A stretch of DNA of 64,000 nucleotides from Pseudomonas sp. S31. GTDB lineage: Bacteria > Pseudomonadota > Gammaproteobacteria > Pseudomonadales > Pseudomonadaceae. Below, piece by piece: positions 35,727 to 40,892 of the stretch; positions within the stretch are counted from its first letter, which is position 1; every line of letters starts with the position of its first letter. The notes under the pieces are model-generated. The model was not told the origin of the DNA and searched no databases. It saw nothing but the letters and a program-made list of their open reading frames with translations. The translations under genes and the position numbers were made by a program. The stretch spans positions 1-64,000 of the forward strand of contig NZ_JACVVE010000030.1 of the NCBI RefSeq assembly GCF_016648105.1. The letters are read 5' to 3'.

Positions 35727-36110
35727 TCAGGCGTCGTCGTTGGCTTTGATCAGGCGGTCGTAGGCGTCCTGGTCGAGCAGCGCGTCGACTTCGGCCATGT
35801 CGGCCGGGTTGAAGCGGAAGAACCAGCCTTCGCCCAGCGGGTCTTCGTTGACCAGTTCGGGCTGGTCGGCAAGTTGTTCGTTGACCGCCACGACTTCACC
35901 GGTGAGCGGCATGTACACGCCACTGGCGGCCTTGACCGATTCGACGGTAGAGGCTTCGGCGCCCTTGTCGTAATGCTGCAGTTCCGGCAGTTGCACGTAG
36001 ACCACATCACCCAGGGCGTTCTGGGCGTAGGCGGTGATGCCCACGGTGACACTGCCATCGGCTTCGACGCGCAGCCATTCGTGATCTTCAGTGAAACGCA
36101 ACTCGCTCAT
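35727..36110 (-). CDS. gcvH: Glycine cleavage system H protein
   Basis: A 127-residue lipoyl-domain carrier protein; the lipoylated lysine is Lys60 in [12 protein letters not shown]. First gene of the gcvH-gcvP-sdaA-gcvT operon, with an AGGA site before the ATG and a sigma-54 type promoter at 36176-36191. P. aeruginosa has a glyA copy in the equivalent operon; it is absent here. Confidence 0.97.
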
Positions 36111-36175
36111 GGGAAATCCTCGGGAAGCAGGGCTTGGTGGCGCGTAAGGCGCGCCCGGTCAGTGAGGATTTTTAT

Positions 36176-36191
36176 TGCAAGAATGTGGCCA
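36176..36191 (-). promoter_or_regulatory. -24/-12 (sigma-54) promoter of gcvH operon
   Basis: On the minus strand the sequence reads TGGCCAC-ATTC-TTGCA, with GG and GC spaced as in the sigma-54 consensus TGGCACG-N4-TTGCA. Transcription would begin near 36165, about 55 bases before the gcvH start. This fits the known sigma-54 dependence of the glycine-induced gcv operon under a TyrR-like activator (GcsR) in P. aeruginosa. Confidence 0.75.
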
Positions 36192-36210
36192 CTTAAAAAA
36201 AGTTTATGTT

Positions 36211-36223
36211 TATCAATTAGTTA
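36211..36223. promoter_or_regulatory. IHF-type site upstream of gcvH promoter
   Basis: TATCAATTAGTTA is an exact match to the IHF consensus WATCAR-N4-TTR. It lies about 20 bp upstream of the -24 element, between it and the repeated motifs at 36257-36373, where a bend would bring a bound activator to the polymerase. The same 16-base context recurs, with one difference, at 39496-39511 before the phenol hydroxylase promoter. Confidence 0.65.
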
Positions 36224-36256
36224 TATGAAGGTTTAGGTTTTTCGAAATACTTGATT

Positions 36257-36373
36257 GGAATGAAATCGATACAGTCATATAGCGGTGGCAAAAGGTTTGA
36301 TCTATCAAACCCTTGGCTATAAGCCACCGACCTCATACGGAATGAAATCAATACAGTGTATTGATTCCATTCC
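36257..36373. promoter_or_regulatory. Array of three repeated motifs with nested palindromes upstream of gcvH
   Basis: GGAATGAAATCRATACAGT occurs at 36257-36275 and again at 36339-36357 (one base different). A 17-base inverted copy with one mismatch is at 36357-36373. Between them lies the perfect palindrome GGTTTGAT-CT-ATCAAACC (36294-36311), enclosed by CGGTGGC (36283-36289) and GCCACCG (36323-36329). The placement upstream of the sigma-54 promoter and IHF site suggests activator-binding sites, perhaps for the TyrR/GcsR-type regulator at 46277-47785. No match to a published operator is claimed. Confidence 0.55.
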
Positions 36374-36425
36374 GCATGAGCTGTGGGGGCGCGCTCAGGC
36401 TTGGACTTGCCTGTTGATCAGCCCC

Positions 36426-37346
36426 TCAACTGGCCTGCAACGCCCGCGGTCGCTGGCTGCGCAATTCATCCTGGGCCTCGCTCGCCGGTTGCAGTTGGAA
36501 GTCGAAGCGCACGCTGGCAAAGCGCCCTGCGATCCCGCTGCTGGGGTCTTCGCCCAGGATCACGTCACCCACCAGTCCGTCGCGGGTGGCGTGGGCGAAG
36601 TCGTCCCACAGGTACTGGTCGCCGGCCAGGTTGATCTGGGTGGTCAGGTGGCGGTGGCCAGGTGCGCAGATGAAGAAGTGAATGTGCGCCGGGCGCTGGC
36701 CATGGCGGCCCAGCAGGTCCAGGCATTGCTGGGTCGGCCCGTCGGGAGGGCAGCCATAGCCACTGGGTACGATGCTGCGTGCGCGGTAGCGGCCCTGGGC
36801 GTCGGTGCGGATGCGTCGGCGCAGGTTGTAGTCGCTCTGGCTGGAGTCGAAGTAGGAATACAAGCCCTGGGTATTGGCATGCCAGACGTCGACGATGGCG
36901 CCGGCGATCGGTTTGCCCTGCAGGTCCAGCACCTGGCCTTCGAGCAGCATCGGCATGCCGGGGTCGGTGCCGTCGTCCAGCCGGGCTTCGCCTTCGTGCA
37001 ACGGCGCGCCGGCCACGTACAGGGGACCTTCGATGGTGCGTGGCGTGCCGCCGACATGCCCGGCCTGCTGGTCGCGGGCGTCGCTGAGCAGGTCGAGGAA
37101 GTGCTCCAGGCCCAGGCCGGCCACCAGCAAACCGGCCTCGCCACGGCCGCCCAGGCGGTTCAGGTAGTCGACCGCCGACCAGAATTCGTCGTCGCTGATC
37201 TCGAGGTCTTCGATCAGCCGGGCGCAGTCCTGCAGCAGGCGCAGGACGATCTGTTTCACGCGCGGGTTGCCCTGTGCGCTGTGGGCGCCTGCGGCCTTTT
37301 CGAAGAACGCCAGCAGTTCGGCGGTATGAGCGATTTTTGCAGCCAT
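36426..37346 (-). CDS. catA: Catechol 1,2-dioxygenase
   Basis: A 306-residue intradiol dioxygenase that cleaves catechol to cis,cis-muconate using non-heme Fe(III). The four iron ligands are in place: Tyr163 (GLYSYFD), Tyr197 (VPSGYG), His221 and His223 (RPAHIHFF). The N-terminal helical dimerisation domain is present. The start is the ATG with a GAGGT ribosome-binding site; a GTG four codons upstream overlaps that site. It lies downstream of the phenol regulator, with its own sigma-54 promoter (37395-37410). It is probably an extra copy beside a catBCA locus elsewhere; muconate must be processed by genes outside this window. Confidence 0.96.
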   Translation of the reverse strand: MAAKIAHTAELLAFFEKAAGAHSAQGNPRVKQIVLRLLQDCARLIEDLEISDDEFWSAVDYLNRLGGRGEAGLLVAGLGLEHFLDLLSDARDQQAGHVGGTPRTIEGPLYVAGAPLHEGEARLDDGTDPGMPMLLEGQVLDLQGKPIAGAIVDVWHANTQGLYSYFDSSQSDYNLRRRIRTDAQGRYRARSIVPSGYGCPPDGPTQQCLDLLGRHGQRPAHIHFFICAPGHRHLTTQINLAGDQYLWDDFAHATRDGLVGDVILGEDPSSGIAGRFASVRFDFQLQPASEAQDELRSQRPRALQAS

Positions 37347-37394
37347 GGGATACCTCACAGGTCATTGTTGTTGTTTTTCCGGTGAAGTCGGTTT

Positions 37395-37410
37395 TGCAAA
37401 GCCGGTGCCA
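37395..37410 (-). promoter_or_regulatory. -24/-12 (sigma-54) promoter of catA
   Basis: The minus strand reads TGGCACC-GGCT-TTGCA, 11 of 12 consensus positions including the invariant GG and GC. The predicted start near 37384 gives a 38-base leader to the catA ATG. The match is as good as that of the phenol hydroxylase promoter. Confidence 0.85.
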
Positions 37411-37450
37411 GGTCGCCAACCCAGGCATTGCAGGGGCTCCAGGCGGTGGT

Positions 37451-37492
37451 CCGGGCAGGGCGGTGGATCATTTGATCAACACCGCCTGCCGG
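37451..37492. promoter_or_regulatory. Activator-type palindrome inside a GC hairpin, between the regulator gene and catA
   Basis: GTGGATCATTTGATCAAC (37463-37480) matches the hydroxylase upstream activator palindrome (39403-39420, read on the other strand) at 15 of 18 bases. It is framed by GC-rich arms (CCGGGCAGGGCGGTG and CACCGCCTGCCGG) that can pair. The DNA may be both the activator site for catA and a transcript hairpin at the 3' end of the regulator gene. No T-run follows. Confidence 0.65.
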
Positions 37493-37506
37493 CATTGCGC
37501 AAATGC

Positions 37507-39210
37507 TCAAGCCCTGCCTGGGGCCTCTTCGCCGGGTGCCTTCTTCAGCCGGTAGGCCAGGGCCGGGCGGGTCATGCCCAGCAGCCGCGCCGCTTCTGAG
37601 ACATTCTGCTGGCAGCGGGCCATGGCCTCCTGCATCAATGCACCTTCCACCGATTCGAGGCTGGTACCGCTGTCGATGATCTGCGCGACCCAGCCTGGCG
37701 CGCCAGGACCACTGTCGGCGACCAGGCGGCCATCGTTGCCCAAACCGATGCTCTCGTCGATGGCCGGGGCCTGGGGGAAAAGGGCATCCACGGCGATGCT
37801 CTGGTTGTCGTCAGTGATGATCACGCCGCGCTCCATGAGGTTTTCCAACTCGCGGATGTTGCCTGGCCATTCGTACTGTAGGCAGGCTTGCATTGCCCTG
37901 TCGCTGAGCCCCCGAGTCTTCTTGCCATAGCTTTCGTGCAGGCGGCCGAGGAAGTGCTCGATGAGCAGTGGAATGTCTTCGCGGCGTTCGCGCAGGGCAG
38001 GGATGCGCACTGGGAATACGTTCAGTCGGTAGAACAGGTCGGCGCGAAAACGACCTTGCTTGACCGCCTGTTCAAGGTCTTCGTGGGTGGCGGCGATGAC
38101 CCGCACATCGACCTGGCGGGTACGGGTGTCGCCCACCCGCTCCAGTTCGCCCTCCTGCAGCACGCGCAGCAGGCTGGCCTGGGCGCGCGGCGTCAGTTCG
38201 ACGATTTCATCGAGGAACAGCGTGCCGCCGTTGGCCCGCTCGAAGCGGCCCATGCGCGCCTGCTGGGCGCCGGTGTAGGCACCTTTCTCGACGCCGAACA
38301 GTTCGGCCTCGATCAGGTCGGGTGGGATCGTCGCGCAGTTGAGGGCCACGAACGGCGCGCCGGCGCGTTCGCTGCGCAGGTGCAGGCTGCGGGCGATCAC
38401 TTCCTTGCCCACTCCGGTTTCGCCCAGCAGCAGCACCGAGGCCTTGCCGGTGGCGACCTTGTCGATCAAGGTGCAGCAGCGCCGATACACCGCCGAGTCA
38501 CCGATGCCATAGAACTGCCCGGCCGCGTACTGCAGGCGCTGGCGCAGGTTGGCCACCTGCACCTGCAGGCTCTGCAGCTCGTCGATGATCGGGTCGCTCT
38601 GAAAGTAGCGCATGAACTCATCGGCATCTTCCCACTGCTCGACGGGCTTGCCGATGATGCGGCATTCGGCACCGCCGCAGCCCCGGCAGCTGACTTCCTT
38701 GTACAGCACCTGGCGGCCGAGGAAGAACGAGCTGTAGCTGATCGCATAGCCCAGCAGCATCCAGCAGATCGGCTGGTCGGAGTGCAGGTTCTCGAGCTGG
38801 CAGTTTTCTACCTCGTACGAGTCCTGCCACTGGATATCGGCGTAGAAGTGGCCGCTCTCCAGGTCGATCTCCAATTGCAGTGGACGGGCCTTGACCATGC
38901 CCTTGAGCGAGTGCAACTGCGGGCCGATGAAGAACATCTCGACCGGGTTGCCGTTGGGCCGCAGCTTGCGCGCAAGCTCGGCATCCTTGAGCCCGGACTG
39001 GTAGCCCAGGCGCAGGAAGAAGCCTTTGGCCCGTTCGACCCCGAGCATTTCGATCAGCTCGCGGCGCATGCTCGCCATCACCGCGGCCTGGACCAGCAGC
39101 ATGCGTTGTTCGTCCAGCCAGATCTTGCCTTCGGTGCCGAGAAAGCGCACCCGCTCGGTGAGGTCCTTCAAGGCCGGTGCCGGTTCAGGTGCCCGGTACT
39201 GGGTGATCAT
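37507..39210 (-). CDS. dmpR: DmpR/XylR-type sigma-54 activator of phenol degradation
   Basis: A 567-residue activator. The N-terminal sensor (V4R-type) domain carries [23 protein letters not shown] and the zinc cysteines CRGCGGAEC of phenol/toluene-sensing regulators. A linker follows, then an AAA+ domain with Walker A GETGVGKE and the sigma-54 contact loop GAYTGA, then a Fis-type helix-turn-helix ([22 protein letters not shown]) at the C-terminus. DmpR itself is about 563 residues, which supports the ATG at 39210 (AAGGGG site eight bases upstream) over longer frames. Phenol binding relieves repression of the ATPase by the sensor. It is divergent from the hydroxylase genes and upstream of catA. 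The exact effector range cannot be read from sequence. Confidence 0.94.
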
Positions 39211-39402
39211 AGGTAGCGCCCCTTGATTGTAGTTGTATGGGGTTTCGGCATGGGCCCGCTCAGGCTGGCGGGTTTCGTTCATGCCGAGGAGGCCTGGGTG
39301 TGCACGCATGGGCCGTCCTGTCCTTTCTAAAACCGCCTGAAAGCCAGGCAAAAGTCAATCGCCGGGTGAATGGGTCATTTGCTGCATCGTCGCGATCAGG
39401 CA

Positions 39403-39420
39403 TTGATCAAATGATCAATC
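39403..39420. promoter_or_regulatory. Upstream activator sequence of the phenol hydroxylase promoter
   Basis: ATTGATCA-AA-TGATCAAT is a palindrome with eight-base arms, of the DmpR/XylR-family type. It lies 120 bp upstream of the -24 element. Only one full copy is seen; the classic Po promoter has two. Confidence 0.8.
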
Positions 39421-39497
39421 TGCCGCGAGCACAGGGTGGCCGACAGCCCTCTGGATGCGCCCTGGGTGGCCAGGCTCCTGATTTAAAAGTCAATTTT

Positions 39498-39510
39498 TAT
39501 CAATTGGTTA
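39498..39510. promoter_or_regulatory. IHF-type site in the phenol hydroxylase promoter
   Basis: TATCAATTGGTTA matches WATCAR-N4-TTR exactly. It lies between the activator palindrome and the sigma-54 promoter, the standard place for IHF in XylR/DmpR-type promoters. Confidence 0.72.
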
Positions 39511-39539
39511 TGAGCTATGCCCACGAGGTTTTTACGGCC

Positions 39540-39555
39540 TGGCACAGCTGTTGCT
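39540..39555 (+). promoter_or_regulatory. -24/-12 (sigma-54) promoter of the phenol hydroxylase operon
   Basis: TGGCACA-GCTG-TTGCT matches the sigma-54 consensus at nearly all positions with correct spacing. Transcription should begin near 39566. This leaves a 24-base leader to the ATG at 39590 and only nine bases to the ATG at 39575, which helps to choose the dmpK start. Confidence 0.9.
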
Positions 39556-39589
39556 CTGATCCCATCGAGCCCAGATGGAGCAACTCACC

Positions 39590-39847
39590 ATGACCCCAGC
39601 CACTTCGTCATTCGAGCAAATGCCGCGTTACGTTCGCGTTCGCAGCGAGCCGGGCGCCGCCTTCGTCGAATTCGACTTCGCCATTGGCTACCCGGACCTG
39701 TTCGTCGAGCTGGTCCTGCCAGCAGCGGCCTTCGCCAGTTTCTGCGAGCACAACCAGGTGCAGCACATGGACGCGACGATGGCCGCTGCCGTCGACGCCG
39801 ACATGCTCAAGTGGCGCTACGGCGAAGGCCGCGACCAGGACGACTGA
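39590..39847 (+). CDS. dmpK: Phenol hydroxylase assembly subunit P0 (DmpK type)
   Basis: An 85-residue small protein first in the operon, of the phenol hydroxylase P0 family (PRYVRVRSEPGAAFVEFDFAIGYPDLFVELVLP). In the dmp system DmpK is not needed for catalysis in vitro but helps assemble active, iron-loaded hydroxylase. The start is the ATG with GGAG nine bases upstream; the alternative ATG five codons earlier would have almost no leader after the sigma-54 start point. Confidence 0.92.
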   Translation: MTPATSSFEQMPRYVRVRSEPGAAFVEFDFAIGYPDLFVELVLPAAAFASFCEHNQVQHMDATMAAAVDADMLKWRYGEGRDQDD

Positions 39848-39896
39848 GGCGCTGCGCTGCAGCCTTGCCCACAACAACAACTACAGGACGCCTTGC

Positions 39897-40892
39897 ATGA
39901 GCATTGAAATCAAGACGGCTACCGTCGAGCCGATCCGCCAGACCTTCAGCCATACCCGTCGGCGCTTCGGCGACAAGCCTGCCAGCCGCTACCAGGAGGC
40001 CAGCTTCGACATCGAGGCGGCGACCAACTTCCACTACCGCCCGCTGTGGCAGCCCGACAAACTGCTCAACGACCCCACCCGCACCGCCGTGCGCATGGCC
40101 GACTGGTACGTGGTCAGCGACCCGCGCCAGTACTACTACGGCGCCTACGTGCAGGCCCGGGCGCGCATGCAGGAAAACGCCGAGCACAGCTTCGGCTTCT
40201 GCGAGAAACGCGAGCTGCTGGCCAACCTGCCGGCACCACTGCGCGCCTCGATCGCCCACCTGCTGCTGCCGCTGCGCCACGCCGAGCTCGGCGCCAACAT
40301 GAACAACAGCGGCATTGCCGCCGACGCCTTCGGCACCAGCGTGACGCAGATGCACATGTTCCACGCCATGGACCGCCTGGCCATCGCCCAGTACCTGTCG
40401 CGCATCGGCCTGCTGCTGGAGGACGACGGCCTGGCACTGCTCGCCGAGGCCAAGCAGCGCTGGCTCGATGAGCCGGCTTGGCAGGGCCTGCGCCGCTACG
40501 TCGAAGACACCCTGGTGGTGCGCGACTGGTTCGAGCTGACCTTGGCCCAGAACCTGGTCAGCGATGGCTTGTTGTATCCGCTGCTGTTCGAGCGTTTCGA
40601 CGACCAGCTGGCGATGGCCGGCGCTGCCCCGGTCAGCATGCTCACCGAATTCATGCGCCTGTGGTTCGGTGAAAGCCAGCGCTGGGTCGATGCGCTGGTC
40701 AAGACCGTCACCGCGGCCAGCCCGGAAAACCAGCAACTGATCGATGGCTGGGTCGGCCATTGGCGCGGTCGCGCGTTGGCAGCCTTGCGCCCACTGGCCG
40801 ACCTCGGCCCAGGCCGTGATGCCCTCGATGCCGTGGACACCGCCTTTGGCGCCCGCCTGGCGAAACTCGGCCTGAACGGAGCGTGCGCATGA
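39897..40892 (+). CDS. dmpL: Phenol hydroxylase beta subunit P1 (DmpL type)
   Basis: A 331-residue structural beta subunit of the (alpha-beta-gamma)2 hydroxylase. It has the fold of the large subunit but lacks the two EXXH iron motifs. Recognisable segments are RTFSHTRRRFGDKPASRYQEASFDIEAATNFHYRPLW-like text near the N-terminus and NMNNSGIAADAFGTSVTQ in the core. It follows dmpK by 49 bp, and its stop overlaps the dmpM start (ATGA). Confidence 0.95.
   Translation: MSIEIKTATVEPIRQTFSHTRRRFGDKPASRYQEASFDIEAATNFHYRPLWQPDKLLNDPTRTAVRMADWYVVSDPRQYYYGAYVQARARMQENAEHSFGFCEKRELLANLPAPLRASIAHLLLPLRHAELGANMNNSGIAADAFGTSVTQMHMFHAMDRLAIAQYLSRIGLLLEDDGLALLAEAKQRWLDEPAWQGLRRYVEDTLVVRDWFELTLAQNLVSDGLLYPLLFERFDDQLAMAGAAPVSMLTEFMRLWFGESQRWVDALVKTVTAASPENQQLIDGWVGHWRGRALAALRPLADLGPGRDALDAVDTAFGARLAKLGLNGACA

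Follow-up and report, generated by a model that had tools for sequence, protein, structure and literature searches.

The catechol 1,2-dioxygenase gene catA very likely stands behind a conserved promoter of the DmpR type in the window, i.e. the whole 64-kb stretch of DNA analyzed here. We further consider it likely from the comparison of related loci that catA has its own sigma-54 promoter under the regulator encoded upstream, and that the proximal activator site of this promoter doubles as the loop of a hairpin in the dmpR mRNA.

The window belongs to a genome of 6.37 Mb (G000, contig 38). On its minus strand it carries a gene for a dmpR/phhR-type sigma-54 activator of 567 amino acids (37507 to 39210), identified by Pfam domains and relatives, and, after a gap of 160 bp, catA on the same strand (36426 to 37346, 306 amino acids; Pfam Dioxygenase_C and Dioxygenase_N). 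The domains XylR_N, Sigma54_activat and HTH_8 of the regulator scored above the Pfam cut-off, while V4R reached 29.9 bits, just below its cut-off of 31, and the protein probably senses phenol. The phenol hydroxylase genes are located on the plus strand and start at about 39590, where Pfam recognizes a phenol hydroxylase subunit; the names dmpR, phhR and phhK were assigned by similarity. Among the best 80 of 581 confirmed relatives of the regulator, the cluster is nearest to loci of named Pseudomonas species. The genome contains three near-full-length catA copies including the one in the window, to which the other two are 74 and 73% identical; these two are found at C30:13598-14524 and C26:7250-8158. 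In a plasmid search that may leave out near relatives of the window, none of the 854 records with a match held at least 80% of 36426 to 39600 in one place. Two plasmid regions were inspected, of which one is a ben-linked catA and the other contains a regulator with no catA in 9.4 kb.

The putative catA promoter is defined by the -24/-12 element TGGCACCGGCTTTGCA (37410 to 37395, minus strand), which was found by pattern match and is conserved in relatives. The initial annotation had described a near-perfect element at this position upstream of catA, and its coordinates hold. The exact pattern TGGCAC-N5-TTGC[A/T] occurs only twice in the 64-kb window, at catA and in the sigma-54 promoter of the hydroxylase operon (39540 to 39555, plus strand), and both matches stand downstream of an activator site. 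Across the genome, TGGCAY-N5-TTGCW is matched 22 times, compared with three for a reversed control pattern. Sigma-54 promoters start transcription about 12 nt after the -12 element, so that, counted from the -12 GC, the catA start is expected at 37384 to 37386 (minus strand). The catA mRNA would accordingly begin near 37385, downstream of the hairpin, and only dmpR transcripts would therefore contain the latter. The leader also harbors an A-rich AAnAAnAA motif (37365 to 37378, minus strand), which we take to resemble a Crc/Hfq target and which is present in 11 of 12 leaders of related loci, being absent in REP124.

The proximal activator site TTGATCAAATGATCCA (37479 to 37464, minus strand) is located in the loop region of the hairpin and agrees at 15 of 16 positions with the strong activator site of the hydroxylase promoter at 39403 to 39418 (plus strand). 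Over 18 bp the agreement is 15 of 18, as had been claimed, and the 53 bp counted between this palindrome and the -24/-12 element (37411 to 37463) is likewise correct. The view that catA has a single activator site, however, has to be abandoned, since the enhancer is a pair whose distal member had been missed. This second activator-like site, TTGAGCATTTGCGCAA (37510 to 37495, minus strand), matches the consensus at 13 of 16 positions, overlaps the dmpR stop codon (37509 to 37507) and is located 31 bp upstream of the proximal one. While TTGANCANNTGNTC has 68 matches in the genome, the form TTGATCA[AT][AT]TGATC is found only at the two sites of this cluster. The hydroxylase promoter follows a similar plan, with a strong proximal site and a weak, more distant one (39371 to 39386, plus strand; 11 of 16) at 32 bp from it. 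The regulator is expected to bind the activator sites on the catA side, and phenol would induce catA through it.

To follow this arrangement across species, we kept the best 80 of 581 loci with relatives of the regulator, of which seven have catA adjoining the regulator gene; this detection is limited by the flanks fetched, a few of which (such as L074 and L084) extend no further than about 400 bp from the regulator. A strict cut applied to 398 genomes of the genus gave 33 regulator matches in 32 genomes. Thirty were examined as loci, and catA follows the regulator in six (L103, L104, L105, L108, L110 and L114), some from species already seen. Of 398 family genomes searched, eight contained the two-site pattern, with catA following in six; of the other two, L135 lacks catA, and L133 carries the pattern on that side of the regulator which faces the hydroxylase genes. 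In a second genus, 4 of 25 genomes show the pattern and catA follows in all four. Merging duplicates left 12 dmpR-catA loci, one per species and including the window, several of which are closely related. In one genome, G390 (L114), the regulator aligns in one frame only to residue 470 with the 3' end sequence present, which suggests that the gene or the assembly is frameshifted; its stop codon can therefore not be placed.

All 12 loci share the same gene order, two activator-like sites (13 to 15 of 16; distal sites 13 to 14) and a GGCAY-N5-TTGC element, which supports the proposal that catA has a separate sigma-54 promoter. The two sites are 31 bp apart in 11 loci and 30 bp apart in one. The distance from the proximal centre to the -24 element is 62.5 bp in two loci (the window and G245), 72.5 to 74.5 bp in nine and 84.5 bp in REP124. 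These spacings cluster near 62.5, 73.5 and 84.5 bp, i.e. one helical turn of 11 bp apart, which suggests helical phasing, with the caveat that the departures may be only two independent events. The enhancer-promoter distance, noted earlier as unusually short, is indeed short in the window but is common to one other locus. These two were joined with full support in a catA tree of 15 rows in which most deeper forks are weak, while REP124 forms a long, uncertain branch, its catA being 63% identical to that of the window.

Eight of the 12 loci contain an IHF-like site with a score of 12 of 13 or better, and one more reaches 11 of 13. No site of at least 11 of 13 was found in the window, G245 and G544, so that the reported lack of an IHF site in the window, between the activator sites and the -24 element, was borne out; at the usual position of the site in relatives (37417 to 37429, minus strand) the window has AATGCCTGGGTTG, with 10 of 13. 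Since its spacer is GC-rich and free of an IHF-like site, the promoter of the window could be weaker. Part of this spacer (37419 to 37449) resembles coding-like stretches elsewhere over about 23 to 33 nt, possibly by chance. It is conceivable, if quite unlikely, that catA is transcribed mainly by read-through from dmpR, its sigma-54 promoter contributing little or undergoing decay in the clade lacking an IHF-like site. Such a scenario would fit the common strand, the 160-bp gap, the missing IHF-like site and the shorter spacing in the window as well as the weaker proximal site of G245 (13 of 16), but it is at odds with the -24/-12 element, which is near-perfect in the window and G245 alike (16 of 17), and with a spacing change of 11 bp that would preserve the helical phase.

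The hairpin at the dmpR 3' end spans 37492 to 37451 (minus strand) and starts 14 nt past the stop codon, confirming that the GC-rich arms around the palindrome can pair. As RNA, the 86-nt stretch around it folds with -42 kcal/mol (z -4.0), a value matched by none of 200 shuffles; for the whole region, z is -4.61 in REP124, -5.34 in jinjuensis and -4.36 in S37. The 14-nt arms flanking the proximal core vary strongly in sequence between the loci, while pairing is kept within each. Over the 12 loci the arm duplexes reach a mean of -19.9 kcal/mol with their own partner versus -13.6 kcal/mol when swapped between species, and none of 20,000 permutations was as good. When close relatives were thinned to eight or six representatives, only the true pairing reached its value (1 of 40,320 and 1 of 720, respectively). 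The own partner ranks first among the 12 for seven of the 12 left arms and seventh for citronellolis. When every third position between -75 and +45 was tried as the centre, the signal was strong at -3, 0 and +3 alone; the best value elsewhere was 30 of 3000, at -42. More than one kind of standard pair was seen in 13 of the 14 left-arm columns, in a table which is drawn from the fold of each sequence and so leans to structure, a bias of which the swap test is free. Taken together, it is well supported that a conserved hairpin sits on the catA enhancer. That the hairpin merely reflects a symmetric protein site embedded in GC-rich DNA is most improbable: the core itself is palindromic and the arms have 82% GC, but the arms outside the core are far more complementary than swapped arms of similar composition, and this does not hold for the hydroxylase site, whose arms have 72% GC.

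The hydroxylase site served as the control because it is expected to be bound by the same protein. Its arms gave -9.8 for own and -10.1 for swapped partners in 17 loci (14,029 of 20,000 permutations as good; two of 19 loci were dropped as the start of the regulator was outside the locus) and -10.5 versus -10.8 in the ten species in common with the catA set, even though some single hydroxylase sites form stable folds together with the adjoining sequence (e.g. P. pudica, -25.6 kcal/mol; P. moorei, -22.4 kcal/mol). Since the hydroxylase arms show no difference between own and swapped partners, the arms are ruled out as a general part of the activator's operator. Likewise, the sites downstream of dmpR homologues without catA, where 30 of 37 loci passed the score threshold, gave -2.9 versus -3.0 (12,349 of 20,000 permutations), with arms of 54% GC against 82% in the catA set. 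The missing effect at the control sites indicates that the covarying arms belong to the catA-side site, which is located in the dmpR 3' region.

Loci with partial losses were also compared. NBRC 14671 (L026) has the distal site and lacks both the proximal site and catA, while in KK4 (L034) and C8 (L028) both sites are present and the arms pair, but catA is missing. In 3A7 (L032) the distal site and the pairing arms are kept, the proximal core has decayed and no catA was found; as its arms pair despite the decayed core, the hairpin appears separable from the enhancer. Compared with shuffles, the fold of the whole region is weak in 3A7 (z -1.97) and KK4 (z -1.31) and strong in C8 (z -6.99), which has an extra hairpin.

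The main rival reading, which we regard as rather unlikely, is that the promoter is real and the inverted arms act in the DNA, either as an extended palindrome for the activator or as a cruciform that makes the site accessible or conceals it. The arms are centred on the activator site, and the bias in G-U pairs is small, eight on the dmpR strand versus five on the other, which is too close to prove that the arms act as RNA. Yet the hydroxylase sites of the same activators, as a set, have no such arms, the arms differ between loci whose activators are 80 to 96% identical to that of the window, and 3A7 retains them although its site has decayed. The dmpR strand folds better than the other strand in only nine of the 12 loci. 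Position 15 of the core is a G in 10 of the 12, which breaks the DNA palindrome and allows a U-G pair in the dmpR RNA. The hairpin most likely belongs to the dmpR mRNA, and we infer that it acts as RNA, with a role at the dmpR 3' end. The suggestion that one palindrome is used both as catA enhancer and as a dmpR 3' hairpin is in this way supported by sequence comparison over 12 loci.

As in intrinsic or hairpin-only terminators, a GC-rich hairpin is present soon past the stop codon of dmpR. The U-tract is missing: none follows the stem of the window hairpin, and a terminator scan reports no terminator there, which rules out a standard intrinsic terminator at the dmpR 3' end. An Rfam scan of 36000 to 40000 returned a sole match, at 39498 to 39615 and far below the gathering score. 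Transcripts of dmpR may nevertheless end at the hairpin.

According to the preferred reading, the phenol-bound product of dmpR, the gene directly upstream, would switch on the sigma-54 promoter of catA. It would do so from two activator sites placed 31 bp apart across the dmpR end, with the stop codon inside the distal site and the proximal site also forming, in the dmpR transcript, the loop of an RNA hairpin. This hairpin would most likely mark or protect the 3' end of the dmpR mRNA or help transcription to stop there, the candidate roles being Rho-dependent termination, hairpin-only termination and protection from 3' decay. We favor that the activator sites and the catA promoter would thereby be insulated from transcription of dmpR. 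Without read-through from dmpR, catA would stay low until phenol is present, when the hydroxylase and the ring-cleaving dioxygenase would be induced together. More tentatively, we may be looking at a bacterial enhancer under double selection, in which the DNA site of an activator is also the loop of the hairpin that ends the activator's own transcript. Activator bound at the hairpin-loop site could then be a roadblock shaping the end of its own mRNA, which would link phenol sensing, regulator level and the insulation of catA in one element.

The catA promoter shares with DmpR/XylR-type promoters (Po of dmp and Pu of TOL) an activator with XylR_N, paired palindromic sites and a -24/-12 element. 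An IHF-like site, usual in such promoters, is present in eight of the 12 catA loci; the IHF motif is also absent from the mph operon in the excerpt of PMC3063778 considered here. Activator sites of this type are placed about 100 to 200 bp upstream in an excerpt of PMC7264223. Those of catA are closer to the promoter than in the Po/Pu type, their centres being about 87 and 118 bp upstream of the expected start. Unlike in Po and Pu, they are located at the 3' end of the regulator gene, one of them inside a covarying hairpin, and the target is catA and not the hydroxylase operon. HbpR of Pseudomonas azelaica is an XylR/DmpR-type activator whose sites precede two promoters, PC and PD (PMC3040749, excerpt), and here, too, one activator has sites before both catA and the hydroxylase genes; the same excerpt, in contrast to what we see at catA, mentions neither a hairpin nor an overlap with a stop codon. 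The dual dmpR-catA arrangement is absent from the phenol operon descriptions in the excerpts of PMC5336314 and PMC7285258. Among titles and abstract openings, drawn from few subscription journals, we found no report of a DmpR-type catA promoter or of an enhancer in an mRNA hairpin.

Many dmpR homologues of Marinobacter and Halopseudomonas are also followed directly by activator-like sites and a sigma-54-like element. The next frames there, judged by eye, resemble a lipoprotein and a large membrane protein and not catA, and as a set these loci have no covarying arms. As a separate observation, a small inverted repeat with ACAnGGAnGT, presumably similar to a CsrA/RsmA target, follows the regulator stop on the sense strand in 16 of 37 non-catA loci, nearly all from Marinobacter (L047, L048, L051, L055, L056, L060, L064, L066, L071, L072, L073, L075, L076, L077, L081 and L092). 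On the antisense strand it was found in none of the 37, and its base rate is about 0.003 per 110-nt stretch.

If the proposed arrangement is true, it would illustrate the recruitment of a second target gene by a compact catabolic cluster in a way that avoids leaky read-through, and it would provide a natural and testable case of one sequence selected both as a protein site in DNA and as an RNA structure. The spacing steps of 11 bp constitute a small natural series on which helical phasing and the IHF requirement of DmpR-type promoters could be tested. For the bacterium itself, the prediction is that, of the three catechol 1,2-dioxygenases encoded, a single dedicated one is induced by phenol together with the hydroxylase.
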